Assembly: GCF_900182585.1 (NCBI RefSeq)
Contig: NZ_FXTM01000022.1
Location: forward strand, 1 to 34,483
Direction of reading: 5' to 3'
Origin: Balnearium lithotrophicum
Lineage (GTDB): Bacteria > Aquificota > Aquificia > Desulfurobacteriales > Desulfurobacteriaceae
DNA length: 34,483 nucleotides
The position numbers were made by a program, and so were the translations under genes. Each line of letters opens with the position of its first letter. Within the stretch, counting starts at the first letter, position 1. This document shows, piece after piece, positions 4,187 to 30,967 of this stretch. Below the pieces are notes generated by a model. The model was not told the origin of the DNA. It made no database searches and was given only the letters and a program-made list of their open reading frames with translations.

Positions 4187-5305
4187 TAGAGAGGATTCAG
4201 GAGTTAAAGGAGGAATTAAAGAAGGTCAAGGAGAAGTACGGAGAAATAAGGGGGTATTTTTGACTTAGATGAGCTCAAAAAGAGACTTTCGGAAATTGAA
4301 GGGGAAATGTCGTCTCCTGAGTTCTGGAACAACCCCGAAAAGGCTCAGAAACTCTCACAGGAGAGGAACAGAATAGAGGAGGAGCTCAACGAAATTTCCA
4401 AGTTAAACGACAAGTTAAACGAAAAGATTGAGGAGTGTGAGGTTCTCATTGAGATGGCTGAGGAGGAGAACGAGAGAGAGCTCCTTGGCGAAGTAGAGGA
4501 AAATCTAAAGGAAGTAGAGGAATCATTAAGCAAACTTGAAATAAAGAAACTTCTCTCTGGAGAGTACGATAAGAACAATGCAATAGTAACAATCCATGCA
4601 GGAGCCGGAGGAACGGAATCCTGCGATTGGGCCCAAATGTTGATGAGGATGTACTTCAGGTGGGCAGAGAGGAAGGGATTCAACGTTGAAATATTGGACA
4701 TTCAGGAAAACGAAGAGGCAGGAATAAAGAGTGCGACGTTCTTAGTTAAGGGAAACTATGCTTACGGGCTTTTGAAATCTGAACATGGAACCCACAGGCT
4801 TGTAAGGATTTCACCCTTTGATGCAAATGCAAGGAGACACACCTCCTTCTGCGGTGTTATCGTTGTTCCCGAGATAGACGATGACGTTGAGGTTGAAATA
4901 AGGGAGGAGGATTTAAGAATAGATACGTACCGCTCCTCTGGGGCTGGAGGACAACACGTTAACACAACAGATTCTGCAGTTAGGATAACCCACATTCCCA
5001 CAGGAATTGTCGTTACGTGTCAAAGTGAACGCTCTCAGATTCAGAACAGACAGAGAGCTCTGAAAATCCTGAAAGCCCGCCTCTATGAACTAAAAATGAG
5101 GGAGAGGGAGGAAAAGCTTGCCCAAGCACGGGGAGAGCACAAAAGCATAGCTTGGGGAAACCAGATACGCTCCTACGTTTTTCAACCCTACCAGCTTGTA
5201 AAGGACCACAGAACAGGAACGGAAAACTCGAACGTTCAGTCTGTAATGGATGGAGACATTGACCAGTTCATAGAAACTTACCTGAAACAAAGGGCTACAG
5301 TATAA
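4183..5305 (+). CDS. prfB: Peptide chain release factor 2, with programmed +1 frameshift
   Basis: RF2 terminates translation at UGA and UAA. The zero-frame part starts at TTG 4183 (overlapping the upstream TGA; GGAGG 7 nt before it). It codes for 26 residues, MIERIQELKEELKKVKE to EIRGYF, and stops at UGA 4261-4263. A +1 shift continues as DLDELKKRL through to 5305, giving 373 residues in all, a normal RF2 length. The codon-recognition tripeptide SPF is seen in RISPFDANARRHTSF and the hydrolysis motif GGQ in SSGAGGQHVNT. An annotation that begins at ATG 4307 would lose the true N-terminus. The shift makes RF2 synthesis depend on RF2 scarcity. The gene is the last of the lpxB transcript; about 170 bp separate it from a cytochrome that itself contains a UGA to be read through. 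Confidence 0.95.
4249..4264 (+). promoter_or_regulatory. prfB programmed +1 frameshift site
   Basis: The sequence AGGGGGTATTTTTGAC holds all known parts of the prfB shift signal. AGGGGG is the internal Shine-Dalgarno-like element, a short spacer follows, then the slippery codon UUU and UGA followed by C, the context most prone to slow termination. E. coli uses CUU as the slippery codon; here it is UUU, which also allows P-site re-pairing in the +1 frame. Frame continuity was checked by translation on both sides. Confidence 0.93.
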
Positions 5306-5473: not shown

Positions 5474-8400
5474 ATGAAAAGGAGGAGGTGGAAAGCGGCT
5501 TTATCTACGGGAACTCTCTTCCTATTAGGAGTTTCTGCTCAAGCCTTAGGTCACCCGGCAGTTCCTCTAAGAGACATCAATGGAAAGCCAATTTCTGAAA
5601 CCCTTAACCCTTCAGACACCATAACAATAGGAAACTCAACTTACATTGCCGGAAATCCTGTAAGTTGGGAAGTCACATGTGGTTCATGCCACAAGGAAGT
5701 TACGGGAGATGTAAAAGGAGGACTTCACTCCCCCGGTCCAATACATGCGACCTACCACATAGGTAGGGGTTGGGATGAGTTAAGTGATGACTTTGGTTAT
5801 GAGAGAGTAAAAGCCGGAAAGGACTGGAGGAAATTTTTACGCTCCTTCGGTGATGATGGAGCCTGGTGACCACCTTCGTACCGCCAGTTGGCGGCAAAGC
5901 ACCCTTCAAAGGACCCCGGGCTTTCTCCAGATATTAACAATGGAGTCGATTACAGAGGAAATGTTAAGTACGACATGGATATGGGAACTCCCGATAAGGT
6001 ATTCACATGTGCATCCTGCCACTCCGGTGGAATTATGGCCTTTGATAGGGACAGCGGAAAGCGCCACGACGAAGTTGAAACCTGGGACAACCAGACCGAT
6101 GGAACAGGATTTTTCTCAAATGCTACCTACTCAGACAGTGAAGTTGACGGAGACTACTTCTCCTATACCGCAGATGAAGAATCAAGGGGATACATCGGAA
6201 TGCCCCACAAGTTCAACTGGAAAAAGTCGGGAGTTTTAGATACAGACTGTCTCCTCTGCCACTCAGACCGTTCCTTAGCTGAAAAAGAAAAGCTTGTAGT
6301 TACTACTTCAAACGGTTGGAATGCTTCAAATCCAACCCCTGCAAACCCAAGGGTTTTTGTCTTTGTTAAGAAGGACAATAACGGAAAGGTTGTTGAGGTT
6401 TCTTTAGGATTTCCTCCACAACTAACACAGGATGAAATTAACAACGGATACACAATCGATTCAGCAGCTTTCTATTCCGACCCTCTTGAGAGATTGGTAA
6501 GTGTTTACTATTCAGACGTTATTCAAGGAGTTATAAAGGATGAGTTAAAACAGTCTGGAATAGACCCAGCAACTCTGAACCAGCAGCAGATGATGACTAT
6601 TCAGAGCTTCACAATAGGTACTATCTCAGGTTATCTGAAACATGGAACGACTACAGGATTTACAATCCCATACTCACAGCTTGGTCAAAAGATAGGTGTT
6701 GACCTTCAGGATTACAACTATGACGATTCTAAATTTAACAATAGACTCTCCGGTTTCTTTGGCCAGTTCTACCTTGATATCGGAGCTCCAAACTTCTCAG
6801 CCCGTGACTACCTGAGAAACGCATTTTTCGAGTCAACAGTTGAGGGTCAGCCTTACGTCGGTTCAGGATTTGTGGTTAGAGCTGCAAATGCAACGAGCAA
6901 TTACTCTTACAAACCGAACGACCCAAACGTTCCGTTTGTAAACCTTGCAAGGGCAGGCCACTTCTTTGGATGGGCAGCAACGGGAACATTAATGTCGATA
7001 GCAGACCCTAACAATCCATCAAAACCTATTGCCTTTGTAAGACTTGAAAAACAACAGGACGGAACGTTCAAGGCTGTAGCTTACTACAAGAATGACGTTG
7101 ACCTTGACAACGTTCAACTGCCCATTCTTGAAACAAGTAACCACTATACTCTAATAAAGGCAGACTCAAGCAGTAAGGATGGTGTATCAGTTTCTCATAC
7201 AGGAGATAAAGATAAAGACCTTTCATTAATGTGTGCCCAGTGCCACTTTGCCATTCCGGACACAGAAAACAAGTGGACTGTAGATGGACAACACTTCTTC
7301 CCCAACTGGTACGTAAGGAGGGGAATCATTGGACTTGGAGCTGACGTTGTTAAGAGAGCTGCGGTCTATGCACCGGATGAGAAACAGAACGACCAATCCG
7401 TTGCCCCGATAGCCATTACTCCAGATGGAGAAATGGCAAAGTACAGCAGTATGAACGATACTATGAACTACTCCGACGGTCTTCCTGTAGGTTACGACGT
7501 TCACATGGCAAAGGATGGTGGGAATTTGTCGTGTCTATCCTGTCACGGACAGGACAATCTTCCCAAAGATGTTAAGGAACACCACAATCCTCACAACTTC
7601 CTGAAAGGTAATGACTCTGCCGGTGAAGTTATGCCTGCACTCGACTACAATCCTTCAGTTAGAACCTGTTCAAGTTGTCACTGGGGAACAGATGACGGCG
7701 CAGCAAAGGCACATGAAGCTTGGTTTGGGCCTGCAGCATCAGCCCACATCAACAAAATTCAGTGTCAGGTATGCCACATACCGTTTAAGACCTACTGGAC
7801 GTTCAGATTCTTCGATGATTCACTTGGATACTCCAACCAGTTTGACGATAGATTAATGAAAATGGATAACGGAACTGTTTATCAGTTTCCTCCAGAGTGG
7901 GCAATTCCTGCCTTTGGACCGACTCCAACCTACGGACTGAACTTCTCTTACGTCATTGCCCAAACGGACGATAACGGAACTGACAAGCTACTTCCAATAA
8001 CGTCAATTGATATGGACCCTTACAGAGCTCTCATGAGGGTCAACAATTCAAACTTTGGACTCTGGAACATTCCTTCGGAAAACTTTCCATGGAGATGGGA
8101 ACCTGCAATTATCAAACGTTGGACTATAAACGATAAGGGAGAGCCTGTCTTAAGGGCAGGTCTAATCAGTCCGATTCAAGTATTTACATGGATTGATGCA
8201 GCAACAGGAAGGGCCCTCTTTGTTCGTGAGATGAACATGGCAATTGATGGAGTTGCCTACGATTCAAATGGAACTCCAGTTGGAAAATCAACCATAGACC
8301 CAGAACTTCCCGAAAAGAGCGTTCCAGGGTTGACGATTGATCCAAAAACTGGAAAAGTTGCATTTAAGATTCACTGGGTAGACGGCAATCCTGGTGGATA

Positions 8401-9454
8401 TGTTGACTATATTGACGATGATGACGGAGATATGGTTCCAGAAATCAGCACAAACGAGGAGTACGAAGCCCTAAAAGCTGCCATTAAACAGGTTCTTGAT
8501 AAGGAAGATCCAGGACATCCTCATAATCCTGTAATCATGACGTTTATGGCACCATTTGGCATTGACCACGGAGTTCTACCTGCTGAGTATGCCCTTGGAG
8601 CTCAGAAGACTGGTCCTCTTTCCTGTAACGCTTGTCACAACTCAGATGAGAGTAAGAACAGGTTGAGTCCGGCGGTCTGGGAAGGGGATGAAAGTGCAGG
8701 AAGGAAGGTAACTCTCACGTTCCACGCCCTACCAGATGAGGCCGTCAGCGAGTCTAAGGCAACGGGAATGTGGATGTTACCGGAGGGAACTAAGTCTGAG
8801 AACGGTAGGTACGTGATTACTCAGGGAGCTCTCTGCAGAGTAACGTCCGTTGGAGTCGAAAGTAAGGAATTTTCTGCTTTCTACTTAGTTACTCCTGATG
8901 GTACTGTAACAGGACCTGTCTCAGATGAAGTAAAAATTTCTGTAGACAAAGGAGCAGTGGATGTTCCAACTTCTGTTAAAGTCGAAAAGGTTGAGAATGC
9001 AAACATTGAGGAATCTGCAGTTGAAGCTGCAAAATCGTACGGAATAGATACTCCCGTTCTTGCAACTGAAGTCTTGGATATTCATACGAAAACAAACAAA
9101 TTTAATTCACCTGTAACATTTACAATTAAGTACGACCCATCCAAGGTGGCAAACAAGGTATTAATTCTTGCAAGTGAGGACGGTAAAAACTGGACAAAAG
9201 TTACAGAATTTGGCGTTGACCCGAACAATCCTTACGTAACGTTTGCAAGGAGCCAGCTCAGCTACTTTGCAGTTGTAGGTGAAGCTCCTTCATCAATTCC
9301 TTCAGGAACAGCACAAACTACAACCGGAGGTGGTAGTGGAGGTGGTTGTTCAATTTCTCCTGCTGTAGAGCCAGTTTCTGGAGGAGTTAGCCTTCTAACG
9401 ATGCTTTCAGGTCTAATAGGGCTTCTCCTTGGAAGGAAAAAAAGGAAAAACTAA
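5474..9454 (+). CDS. Octahaem c-type cytochrome with in-frame UGA (probable selenoprotein)
   Basis: Read through the UGA at 5867-5869 as selenocysteine (residue 132), this is one frame of 1326 residues. A Sec signal peptide (MKRRRWKAALSTG..., cleavage near AQALG) leads to eight CXXCH haem sites: CGSCH ~69, CASCH ~179, CLLCH ~259, CAQCH ~587, CLSCH ~686, CSSCH ~732, CQVCH ~764, CNACH ~1050. A beta-rich domain follows (about 1130-1260), then a Gly-rich linker, GCSISP, a hydrophobic segment and RKKRKN, resembling a surface-sorting tail. The UGA context is GAW-U-PPSYRQLAAK, shared with the paralogue at 25099. A separate start at TTG 5888 is unlikely: it lies inside the hairpin, has no ribosome binding site and would yield a cytochrome without signal peptide. 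It is probably monocistronic, ending at a strong terminator. Extracellular electron transfer or reductase role is inferred; substrate unknown. Confidence 0.9.
5867..5899 (+). promoter_or_regulatory. Candidate bacterial SECIS element and Sec UGA codon (cytochrome 1)
   Basis: The UGA (5867-5869) is followed by a hairpin: CCGCC (5881-5885), loop AGUU (5886-5889), GGCGG (5890-5894). The apical loop begins 16 nt after the UGA and has a G in its first two bases, matching the general rules described for bacterial SECIS (spacing about 16-37 nt, short stem, early G). CUU (5874-5876) can pair with AAG (5897-5899) to extend the lower stem across a small internal loop. It recurs with one base changed, outside the upper stem, in the second cytochrome. 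Confidence 0.82.
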
Positions 9455-25098: not shown

Positions 25099-28000
25099 AT
25101 GGGAAGGAAGTGGAAGAGGAGCAGTCTAAAAGTAACAACAGGCCTCATACTATCAACAGTGCTGGCATCCCAAGGGTTTGCACAGCACCCGTCGGTTAAA
25201 CTCTTAGACCTTGACGGAAACTCCGTTAAAAGTTCCCTCAATGCAACAGATACCGTGACCCTTGTCTCAAACAACGGAACAGAAGTTACTCTGGAAAGAG
25301 GAAACCCTGTAAGTTTTGAAAAGACATGTGGACAGTGTCACGAGAACATTATTGAAGACGTTAGAGCATCCCACCATGGCGCAGTTGGCCTTCACGACAT
25401 GGGATGGATTGATAACAGAGAAACGTTCGGGGACGATACAGGAAGTAAGGACTTTGTTACAAACGTTGTTCTGAAAATGAGGTACTTCCGCTCAAAGTCC
25501 CACTACGGCGGCTGGTGACCACCTTCATACCGCCAGTTGGCGGCAAAGAAACCTTTAAACGACCCTGCAGTTCCAGATGGGGCCGTTGACGGAATCAACC
25601 CTGCAGACCAGAATGCCTACAAGGGTTTCAACTTTGATATGGGCACTGCAAACCACAACATAACCTGTAACTCCTGTCACGCAGGTGGTGGTGCAGCCCA
25701 GTTTGGAAGGGAAAACAAACCCTTAGATGAAGTGTTAAAGGAGAAGTTAGGAGAGGATAAGTTCAACGATTTGGAGAACAAGGACTGGTTTATAGATATC
25801 GACAACGACACTGACTACAACATTCCTATTGATGGAGACCTCTTTGCCTATTCTGACTACGAGGTCGGTGGAGGTTACATAGGGAAACCCCACCTATTTA
25901 ACTTCAAGCGTTCTGGTGTAAACGATACAGACTGTCTCATGTGTCACGCCGATGCAACTCAAAGAGCCAAAACTGTAAAGACGGAAATAAACAATACAAC
26001 TCTTTCTCCCATAATGCCTGCGAATCCAAGGGTTATGGTGTTTAAAGGGATGACATCTGATAATGAGACAATAGTCATTTCATTAGGTGTTCCTCCAAAA
26101 GTTGGAGAGACGATAAACGGAAAAACTGTTGCAAAGGTTGATTCTGCTTACTACAACTCTGTTCCTATAACTGTTCTTAAATCCCTCTACGGATTGTCCG
26201 ATGATGATATATCCAACATCGAATCAAACAATGGAACGTGGTCAAGATTTTTCATCTATCCAAACAATGCAAACGGAGCAACGAGGGAAGTTGCAAGGGT
26301 TACCTACTTTGAACATCCCAAGAGCACAAAGGATAAGGACGGTGGGGATGTTTACGTTAACGGCGGAGCTGTAACCTTTAAGGACGATAATGGAGATACC
26401 GTTTACAGGACGTTTGCTGGATTCTTCTTTAAGTACATATCAACAGCCTCTCTAATGGGAGTAGATACAGACCAGGATGGAGTTCCTCTTGCCTACGTCA
26501 GGTTTGTTAAGGAAAACGGCATCTGGAAACCTGAAGTTTACTACGACGTTAAAGAGTTTAACGATAAAGGAGAGGTGGACCTTCCAATCTTAGAGAACAG
26601 AGTTGGTGATAAGAACACACCAGCTACAGAGGTTTCTCCTAAGGATTACAACTATTCAGTTCCTACGGCTTTAGGAAATGCCGATAATCCTTATCCTCAA
26701 ATGACAACTCCTGCCGAAGGGAGTGATAAGAATAGAGCCTGGGGATACGTATGTTCTTACTGTCACATGGCAATTCCCTACGAGGATGGAAAGCTTCCAG
26801 ATGGAAACTCAACATACGCCTGGGTAACGAGGAAGGGAACTCTCGGACTTGGAGCTGAAATCGTTAAAAGGGGAGACGTCTTCTCCTACGATTTACACAG
26901 AGGTGGAGAGGAGAAAGGAAACTTACCAGCAGATGCATTCAAGAACGTAGACCTTTCAAACAGTACTCAAGCCCAGCAGGCTTTCCACAGAATGTTAACT
27001 GCAAAGTCCGTTCAATCGATTGATGATATCCCAATAGGTTACGACGTTCACTTTGACAGTGAAAAGGGAGGAATGACCTGTCTCTCTTGTCACGGTGAGG
27101 GAACACTCTCTCAGGAGGAGAAAGAGTACCATCCTATACACCACGACTTTTTAAAGGGTAACGACTGGGGAGGTCACTGGGACCAGTCCTTAGACTACAA
27201 CCCTTCACTTAAAACGTGTTTAGACTGTCACTTTGGAGGTTCAAGGCAGCTTGCTGCCCAAGTTCATAGCGATGCATTTGGACCAGAAGGAAACGCTGCA
27301 ATCCACATGGAGAAGGTCTCCTGTGAAGTCTGCCACATTCCATTTAAAACCCACTGGACATTCAGAACGTTCTACGACGTCCTTGGATACTCCTACAACT
27401 TTGACAACAGAATTCTTGGATACAATCTAAACAACGGTACAACTGTACCTCTTCCTGAAAGTATGTTTACTCCAGGATTTGGTCCATTTATGCCAATTGC
27501 AGGGTACGGAGCTCCCCAACCTTTCTGTATTGTGAGAACGGACAACGGTAAAGATACTCTTGTTCCAATATATCAGGCTGACTTTGACCCAAGGCAGGCA
27601 GCCCTAAGGCTTGAGAAGAAAGAATTTGGAATTTGGAACGTTCCAGACATTTCATTCCCATGGGCCTGGGCTCCAGTAATAATCAACAACGGATTTAGAC
27701 CTGACGTTCCAGGTGGACAGAAGTTCATGTACAGAATAGCAGACCCCCTAACACTTGTAACCTGGTACGACAAATCAACTGGAAAAGTTCTGTACACAAG
27801 GGAAATGGCAGCTGCACTTGATGGAACTGAATATTCAGAACACGCAAAGAAAAACGTTCCGGCCTACTTTATACACGATGGAAAGGTATGTGTTAAAACA
27901 ATCTTAGGTGACTACATATGTGACGACAACGGCGATTACCTACCTGAAATAGATACAGACGAAGAGTACGAAGCAATGAAGTCTGCCCTTACAGATGTTC

Positions 28001-29601
28001 TAAAGAGAGAGGGGGTTAAAAATCCTGACCCTGTCTTCTACATCTGGACTGCTCCGTTCAGCATAGACCACGGTGTCCTTCCAAAGGATTATGCCCTTGG
28101 TGCAGGAAAAACCGTTAATGGAGAGGAGCTCAACTGTTCTGCCTGCCACGATGCTAAAAATGGAAGGCTTCCTCAGGCAAACATGGCAGACATTGAGGGA
28201 AGCTCAACACTCAAAGAGCTGATAGTTAAAGACAGTAAAGGAAACGTTAAGTTCTTCGGTCTTGGAAGGGAGATTGTTACAGTTCCAACCAAGATTCCGC
28301 CTACGGCTTACAAGGAAGCAGTTAGGGTATTCTTCAACTCCCCTGAGGATGAGAACGGCAATCCTAAGTATGGAACAATGAAGATTAAGGTTGCTGGAAC
28401 TGAAAAGGACATTGATGTCATGTACACAACGGCTGGAGATATCTTAGTTAATGCCCTTACAAACGGAGTTGATATAGACAGGCACCTTGTTCCGATTCCT
28501 GTAGAGAGCTCCGGAATAGATGGAGCTGCATTTGCCCTTCCTGATAAGAAGTCAACCTGGAAGATGAGAATCGAAGGAGTTGAGACGGAAGTTGAAACAG
28601 AAGCTCTCGAAAATGACGAGATGCCAAGAAGGGCAATCGTTGTTAGAATGAAGAACGAAATGCCGGAGCTCTTAGGCTTTGAGCACCTTGCAGAAGAGAT
28701 AATGTCTGCCGGAGAAGGGAACTACGTAGCGGTATTCACACCTATAATTCCTTCAGAGTACATAGAAAAAATGACGTTTAATCTTGCCAACTTAAAGGTT
28801 GCTGACCCTGAGAACCTCTCAATCAACTATGCAAAAATTCACAAAGTAAGAGTATCTGAAGAAAGTAACGTTCACTACGAAGTTGACAAGGAGAACTTTA
28901 AGCCAGAGTCAATTTCCGTTAAGGAAGCAATCAGCAGGGGATGGGCTTACTACGACCCATCTACCGGAGAGTTGGTAGTAAACGTTAAAGCTATGAGTGA
29001 GGAAGTTCCCGGAGAGGGAGAGCTTGCATTTTCCGTTATGAGAAAGGTTGGAAGTGAAGTTATCCTTCCAGAAGAAGTTCAAACCAATAACGGTCAGATT
29101 GTTGCTAAGGTCGAAGGAAAAGAGGTTACAGTCAGTGTAGCAGATGCAGCAATAGACGAAGTTCTCAGACCTGTAGACCTTCTAAAATTTGCCCAAGAAC
29201 TGAGACTTAAAAAGGTGGTCGTTGGTTTTAAGGTTACAGATGAGGACAACAACTTCTCTATTGAGATTGACCCGAACGGCGCTATTGACTCAAACAGGGC
29301 TGTTGCCTACATCATCGTTAACGGAGAAAAGCATAAATGTAAACCAACTGTTGAAAGCAACGGTAAACTCAAGGTTACCTATCCATGTACAAGGTCTGAA
29401 ACAAGGGCTACCGAACCGATTGAAGTTGTAGTTGGTGAGGAGAGCTCCACGCCGACGGTCTCCGGTGGAATCAGCGGAGGAGGCGGTGGAGGTGGTTGTT
29501 CCATTTCTCCTTCAACAACTGCCTCAAGTGGACTGTTTAACTTAGGACTTCTCCTATCCGGACTTTTAGGGTTCTTCGGGTTTAGAAGAAAGAAGCACTA
29601 A
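25099..29601 (+). CDS. Octahaem c-type cytochrome with in-frame UGA (probable selenoprotein), second copy
   Basis: With the UGA at 25516-25518 read as selenocysteine (residue 140) this is a single frame of 1500 residues. It has a signal peptide (MGRKWKRSSLKVTTG..., cleavage near GFAQ) and eight CXXCH sites: CGQCH ~76, CNSCH ~190, CLMCH ~278, CSYCH ~552, CLSCH ~661, CLDCH ~707, CEVCH ~742, CSACH ~1012. Blocks shared with the 5474 paralogue include CHIPFKTxWTFR, DxLGYSxxFDxR and IDHGVLPxxYALGA. The long region after haem 8 (about 1020-1440) is different from the paralogue and beta-rich. The C-terminus is a Gly run, CSISPS, a hydrophobic helix and FRRKKH, a likely surface-sorting tail. Context at the Sec is GGW-U-PPSYRQLAAK. 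The gene looks monocistronic, between a hairpin and a strong terminator. Substrate unknown; extracellular electron transfer is inferred. Confidence 0.9.
25516..25548 (+). promoter_or_regulatory. Candidate bacterial SECIS element and Sec UGA codon (cytochrome 2)
   Basis: UGA 25516-25518 is followed by CCGCC (25530-25534), loop AGUU (25535-25538) and GGCGG (25539-25543). Spacing from UGA to loop is again 16 nt. From the TGG before the UGA to the AAG after the hairpin, 36 nt match the first cytochrome with one synonymous change (Ser TCG to TCA). The Arg in the stem is CGC, where neighbours mostly use AGG or AGA. Confidence 0.82.
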
Positions 29602-29656: not shown

Positions 29657-29686
29657 ATACTTTATCCACAACTTTTGGAGGAATTA

Positions 29687-30967
29687 ATGAGAAAGGCTTT
29701 ACTACTTTGTTTAATACTTCTTGCTTCATGCGGCTTAGGTTCGGAGAGTAAAAAGCAGACCTCTAATGTTGAAACTAAAAAAACGGCCGTTTGCTCACAG
29801 GATACAGTACTTGCAGAAGGAAAGGGACTGAGAGTAACCCTATCGGACTATAAGTATACTCAGAGCTTACTTAACAGTAAGTCGAAGTCTTTCTTCTCCT
29901 CCCATCCTGAAGAACTTTTGAAGAGGATGGTGAACAGGAGGTTAGTCCTTAAGTATGTGGAAGACTCAGGACTTTCTAAGAAATATGGTTTGGATAGTGA
30001 GATAGAGGAATTTAAGAAAGACTACCTCTCAAGGCTTTACGTGTCTGAGGAAGCCAAGAAGAGACTTAAACCTGTAACCGATGAGGAGATTGTAAAACGG
30101 TTCAAGGAGCTCTTTCCCAAAAAGGACCCTTCAAAAATGAGTAAGGGTGACAGAAATTTTATAGAGAACGAACTGAAGGTTAAACACTACGATGAAGCCG
30201 TTAAATCAATATACAGTGAGGTTGAAAGAAAACTAAAGGTAAGTGATAAGGATGGAAAAATAACAGTAAGCTGCTGCTCAATAGAGGTTTCACAAAATCT
30301 GAAAGGGGGAGAGGATAAAAGCAGAGTTGAAAATCAACTTAAGGAGAGGTTTTTCAAGGAGTATTTCTACAAAAAGGCATTGGAAAAGGGATTTGACAAA
30401 GACCCAAACTTTCAAAGGATGTTAACCGAGTACTTTGCAAATAGGGCTATTGAAATCTTCAGGAAGGAGCTTGAGAGGGAAATTCACCTAAGCCCTGAAG
30501 AGTTGAAGGACTTTTATGAAAAGAACAGAGAAAAGTTCAAGATGCCAGACAGGGCTCAAGCAGTTGTTCTACTCTTTGAAGATAAGAAAAAGGCCATTGA
30601 AGCGAAAAAGTTACTCGAGTCCGGAAAGAGCTGGGAGGAGGTTTCAAAGAGGTTTGGAAAGTTTAATGCCAAACCAAAGTTCTACTTTAAGGATGCAAAG
30701 GATCCTGTAGGCTCCCTCATCTTTGCAGAAGGAGAACCAGAGAAAGGAAAGATTATGGTTGCTCAGTTCGGAGATAGGACGTACGCTGTTATCTACGTTA
30801 TTAAGACTGTTAAGGGAGGAGTCCTTCCCTACGAGAAGGTTAAAAACTACGTGAAGTTGGTTTTAAAGAGGGAAAAGCTGAGGAAACTGGAAGAGGAAAA
30901 GTTGAGGGAGCTCTGGAAAAAGTACAACGTAAAATTGGAGAATCTTAACTGTATAGGGAGCTCTTAG
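29687..30967 (+). CDS. PpiC/SurA-like peptidyl-prolyl isomerase lipoprotein
   Basis: Starting at ATG 29687 (GGAGGA lies just upstream; a TTG at 29675 falls inside that ribosome binding site and is rejected), the 426-residue protein opens MRKALLLCLILLASCGLG. This is a lipoprotein signal with lipobox LASC, so it should be a periplasm-facing lipoprotein. The long helical N-terminal part (MVNRRLVLKYVEDSGLSKKY) resembles SurA/PrsA chaperone domains. A PpiC-type rotamase-like segment follows at about residues 285-380 (MPDRAQAVVLLFEDKKKAI; GKSWEEVSKRFG), but the parvulin catalytic residues are not obvious. It may assist folding of outer-membrane or secreted proteins; serving the cytochrome upstream is a guess. 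It converges on and overlaps the pfkB-family gene by 4 nt. Confidence 0.75.
   Translation: MRKALLLCLILLASCGLGSESKKQTSNVETKKTAVCSQDTVLAEGKGLRVTLSDYKYTQSLLNSKSKSFFSSHPEELLKRMVNRRLVLKYVEDSGLSKKYGLDSEIEEFKKDYLSRLYVSEEAKKRLKPVTDEEIVKRFKELFPKKDPSKMSKGDRNFIENELKVKHYDEAVKSIYSEVERKLKVSDKDGKITVSCCSIEVSQNLKGGEDKSRVENQLKERFFKEYFYKKALEKGFDKDPNFQRMLTEYFANRAIEIFRKELEREIHLSPEELKDFYEKNREKFKMPDRAQAVVLLFEDKKKAIEAKKLLESGKSWEEVSKRFGKFNAKPKFYFKDAKDPVGSLIFAEGEPEKGKIMVAQFGDRTYAVIYVIKTVKGGVLPYEKVKNYVKLVLKREKLRKLEEEKLRELWKKYNVKLENLNCIGSS

Follow-up and report, generated by a model that had tools for sequence, protein, structure and literature searches.

Predicted selenocysteine and a candidate bacterial SECIS hairpin in two diverged octahaem cytochrome genes of Balnearium lithotrophicum

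Selenocysteine (Sec) in multihaem cytochromes has a short record. For the ExtKL selenocytochrome of Geobacter (NF040886), an in-frame UGA was proposed as Sec in 2007 (PMC1914089, PMC5877670); a review lists ExtKL as a Sec multihaem cytochrome (PMC13188914), and WP_331457571.1 is a TIGR04315-type octaheme cytochrome that contains Sec according to its GenBank annotation (PMC13188914). That review, the 2007 proposal and its follow-up were the only relevant items we found in the literature on Sec in octahaem or multihaem cytochromes. For the bacterial selenocysteine insertion sequence (bSECIS), published limits are a spacing of 16-37 nt, a loop of 3-9 nt, an upper stem of 4-16 bp and an energy of -7.5 kcal/mol or lower (PMC13188914). 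Here we analyse 2 octahaem cytochrome genes in a stretch of 34,483 nucleotides from Balnearium lithotrophicum (contig NZ_FXTM01000022.1, positions 1 to 34,483 of the forward strand; hereafter the window), each carrying an in-frame UGA followed by the same hairpin. We put the probability that both UGA codons, at 25516 and 5867, specify Sec inserted through a SECIS element at roughly 95%, a figure that concerns decoding and excludes any catalytic role of the residue. The sequences thus point to ordinary SelB-dependent Sec insertion into an octahaem family that no existing model covers.

Both genes lie on the forward strand. The family B gene (25099-29601) encodes 1500 amino acids when its UGA (25516-25518) is read as Sec140, and the family A gene (5474-9454) encodes 1326 when its UGA (5867-5869, also forward strand) is read as Sec132. 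Each read-through translation contains 8 CxxCH motifs, with the predicted Sec between the first and the second. Both proteins have a signal-peptide-like start, and the family B protein, like its partner, has a Gly-rich CS tail, a C-terminal hydrophobic segment and a basic end. Like the TIGR04315 family (octahaem tetrathionate reductase), the window proteins have 8 haems, but they are far longer, and the similarity is weak and confined to about 80-100 residues over the middle haems, with scores of 36.5, 36.1, 49.3 and 37.2 bits against a curated cut-off of 375. Like ExtKL, they are c-type multihaem proteins for whose in-frame UGA Sec has been proposed, whereas ExtKL has 5 haems, all in its N-terminal part, and no match of the window proteins to NF040886 was obtained at E <= 0.001. 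Since the genes fall below both cut-offs while Sec multihaem cytochromes are already on record, we regard them as a further example of an established type.

Homologues of these genes were collected within one Aquificota family, for which 22 genomes were available; 17 of these hold full or partial octahaem genes of these types, and the nearest records by name are Thermovibrio and Desulfurobacteriaceae metagenome bins. A third octahaem family (C), present in relatives and in the window's own genome (L052:304-2757, on G000:C35), has the same UGA and hairpin core in a protein of about 800-900 amino acids, which has neither the long insertions nor the C-terminal parts found in the window proteins. 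The UGA is present in all 34 homologous genes of families A, B and C, including every family B gene found. This distribution bears directly on whether the UGA could be a real stop, arisen by nonsense mutation or assembly error in split or dead genes. A standard open reading frame listing does break the family B gene at this codon, but the same UGA recurs in 17 separately assembled genomes, and in the window genes the frame stays open for more than a thousand codons beyond it, with 7 of the 8 CxxCH motifs downstream; we give a true stop practically no credence, and the sequence-only reading was right to dismiss independent sequencing errors or parallel nonsense mutations. The same split or truncation in standard annotation would keep these octahaem cytochromes, which are large and exported, out of descriptions of vent metabolism.

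Around the UGA the 2 genes are almost identical. A block of 12 codons (25513-25548 in the family B gene, 5864-5899 in the family A gene, both on the forward strand), which would encode W-U-P-P-S-Y-R-Q-L-A-A-K and reads TGG TGA CCA CCT TCA TAC CGC CAG TTG GCG GCA AAG at 25513-25548, differs between them by a single synonymous base, TCG in family A for TCA in family B. As the sequence-only reading had described, this block occupies the aligned position in proteins that are otherwise clearly diverged: families A and B share 37% amino-acid identity across 1185 aligned codons, with both UGAs in one alignment column. Where their residues agree, 47% also share the codon, compared with the 43% that codon usage would predict; synonymous sites are therefore saturated, and the block, in which every degenerate codon but one is the same, is not a product of chance. 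Among the ten codons upstream of the UGA only 1 of 3 comparable codons agrees, in contrast to 8 of 9 among the ten from the UGA onward. Also confirmed was the use of CGC for Arg amid AGG and AGA, which make up most Arg codons in both genes; CGC accounts for 3 of 42 in the family A gene and 2 of 51 in the family B gene.

Further evidence came from the 34 genes of the 3 families taken together. Of 70 degenerate columns in which the residue is invariant, exactly 5 are also invariant in codon, and these form one unbroken run that occupies +4 to +8 relative to the UGA: Tyr TAC, Arg CGC, Gln CAG, Leu TTG and Ala GCG. They are the codons of the hairpin, and 3 of them are rare, CGC, TTG and GCG supplying 8%, 7% and 7% of the codons for their residues. 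The prolines and serine immediately 5' of this core and the alanine immediately 3' use two to four codons each. Drawing precisely these 5 columns at random from 70 would have a chance of 1 in 12.1 million, a figure that ignores shared ancestry. It might be argued that selection acts on the peptide WUPPSYRQLA alone and that codon identity is incidental, and this peptide is indeed highly conserved; however, at the 65 other invariant degenerate residues of these proteins the codon does vary, and the 5 exceptions include Arg, Leu and Ala codons of 7-8% frequency, which leaves that explanation a negligible probability. Selection on the RNA hairpin besides the protein, which had been suggested from the window alone, is therefore strongly supported by these sequence comparisons, and the 15-nt stretch would offer a clean natural example of constraint both as peptide and as RNA signal.

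The alternative offered by the sequence-only reading, that the shared block was left by local gene conversion, or by duplication, in the recent past, was weighed against the same alignments. Codons in the flanks match slightly more often in copies from one genome than in copies from different genomes (0.575 vs 0.459, permutation p 0.027), and the 2 copies in one genome (G015) share an identical run of 41 nt. Nevertheless, the rest of the genes likewise agrees more within a genome (0.491 vs 0.445), the longest identical run through the UGA, of 42 nt, joins copies of different genomes, and synonymous sites between the copies are saturated. Raised synonymous identity across the flanks, which had been named as the sign of a recent duplication, was not found along the alignment of the window genes. 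Moreover, the core is the same in every gene of the three families, and third positions next to it are free to vary. In all cases with a readable flank, family A genes are bordered by prfB and cysS and family B genes by alaS and a PPIC-type peptidyl-prolyl isomerase across genera, which indicates that both are old orthologous sets with conserved but different neighbourhoods. Recent conversion is accordingly very improbable, and constraint on the hairpin as RNA and as peptide would account for the identical block shared by genes that have diverged elsewhere.

The hairpin itself, CCGCC-AGUU-GGCGG, is identical in the 2 window genes (25530-25543 in family B, 5881-5894 in family A, forward strand), starts 11 nt past the UGA and places its loop 16 nt past it. 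With a 5-bp stem, a loop AGUU in which G is second and U third, and energies of -9.5 and -9.4 kcal/mol, both copies lie within the published bSECIS limits on spacing, loop, stem and energy. In the genome of the window the pattern of UGA plus hairpin occurs three times, every time in an octahaem gene. On the other hand, shuffling gave z-scores of -1.9 and -0.6 for the two hairpins, 2.3% of all TGA triplets across the window satisfy the SECIS rule at a hairpin energy of -7.5 kcal/mol or lower, and an Rfam scan of the window at the gathering threshold returned two tRNAs and nothing else. By itself the hairpin is weak evidence; the signal is its conservation.

The host genome has the complete machinery that bSECIS function requires: selA (625 bits), selB (428 bits), selD (368 bits, with one in-frame UGA) and a tRNA-Sec with anticodon UCA (78.9 bits). 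The SelD protein (L195, G000:C4:49883-50809) is itself a predicted selenoprotein, with its UGA in SGUGAK and its own candidate SECIS, as it is in 20 more genomes from this family. The hairpin of these 21 SelD genes is typically AGCCC-GGUC-GGGCU, its loop 17 nt past the UGA, so that octahaem and SelD genes share the hairpin architecture in unrelated proteins and with other stem bases. The tips differ as well, AGUU in the octahaem genes and GGUC in most SelD hairpins, although one SelD variant (L207, AGCCC-AGUU-GGGCU) carries a tip identical to the octahaem one; common to both is N-G-U-N', in which N can pair with N'. A second variant (L213, AGUCC-GGUC-GGACU) contains a compensatory change. Across the five distinct octahaem and SelD hairpins, 97% of the cells pair, compared with 17-50% when the partners are slid, and 4 of 6 pairs are changed on both sides. 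The compensatory stem changes that the sequence-only reading had proposed to look for are thus present in SelD hairpins of the same genomes and absent within octahaem genes, where the stem core does not vary. Of the other selenoprotein candidates, the FdhA-like proteins of the window's genome contain no UGA, and Sec-FdhA of two relatives has a GGUCU-type tip at 18 nt.

These observations also bear on decoding of the UGA as another residue, Trp or Cys, through a suppressor tRNA or a modified genetic code. An altered code would keep the frame open equally well; yet release factor 2 is encoded by prfB at 4307-5305, the Sec machinery is complete, and the hairpin type 3' of the octahaem UGA is that of Sec-SelD, all of which make such decoding highly unlikely. 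In the mechanism we propose for Sec insertion, CCGCC-AGUU-GGCGG would act as a bacterial SECIS element whose N-G-U-N' tip is bound by SelB carrying guanosine triphosphate and Sec-tRNA(Sec), and SelB would deliver Sec to the ribosome ahead of release factor 2 at both UGA codons. Because the 15 hairpin nucleotides also spell Tyr-Arg-Gln-Leu-Ala, they would be fixed at both levels; coding for a conserved peptide would explain why the octahaem hairpin, in a departure from other bSECIS elements, is constant in sequence over 15 nt.

Several points weigh against this interpretation. Sec in the octahaem protein is a prediction from sequence. The family C hairpin, CGCC-AGUU-GGCG, lacks the outermost pair and so has a 4-bp stem, and the 45-nt fold of one third-family gene (L057) has an energy of just -5.7 kcal/mol, which exceeds the published limit. 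Octahaem genes show no variation in the stem core and therefore provide no covariation of their own, and the pair count for octahaem and SelD hairpins mostly compares non-homologous genes, with two changes within SelD in addition. No Cys homologue of the kind that would prove a Cys/Sec exchange was found in 136 Aquificota genomes or in plasmids, where tblastn with the third paralogue gave no match, other phyla being covered by a scan of close relatives only. Finally, AlphaFold models were too poor to place Sec near a haem.

As to function, AlphaFold2 gave a predicted local distance difference test (pLDDT) value of 43.9 for the family B core (1033 amino acids) and 42.3 for the compact third family (780 amino acids), and sequence searches of the PDB produced nothing usable as a template for the Sec region. 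A fourth octahaem paralogue (L053, L054, L061) lacks the UGA, and its residue aligned with Sec is Ser; the octahaem fold therefore does not require Sec. By analogy with Sec in other oxidoreductases, we infer a redox or ligand role for the residue, and a catalytic role near haem 2 is likewise inferred only. Unusual here are the three predicted Sec paralogues in one genome and the lack of any Cys form in the phylum as searched. A tentative extension, to which we give rather less than even odds, is that these are lineage-specific octahaem enzymes strictly dependent on Sec, with selenium directly at or beside the catalytic haem. If true, a respiratory reductase of hot-vent bacteria would employ selenium-haem chemistry. 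With this family it becomes testable whether an octahaem reductase has selenium at its active haem. The predicted octahaem family would in any case add a selenoprotein type that has no covering model and for which no Cys form was found.

Other features of the window and of the related genomes deserve mention. All of the octahaem proteins share an ending in which a Gly-rich stretch is followed by CS, then by a hydrophobic segment and finally by basic residues (window 9325-9454 and 29475-29601). It resembles a protein-sorting tail, and a similar tail seems to terminate other proteins in other Aquificota; comparison with NCBIfam tail models gave no convincing match. Downstream of the second octahaem gene, the PPIC-type peptidyl-prolyl isomerase gene (window 29675-30967) occupies this place at the 12 loci with a readable flank, and its product may be a dedicated folding helper.

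Four genomes of genus g3 (G009-G012) have kept selB and Sec-SelD while lacking the octahaem family and Sec-FdhA; either they encode other selenoproteins or the Sec system is kept for SelD alone. Upstream of the family A gene, prfB (window 4200-5305) appears to have the usual programmed +1 frameshift, with the slippery site AGGGGGTATTTTTGAC (UUU UGA) in place of the usual CUU UGA.
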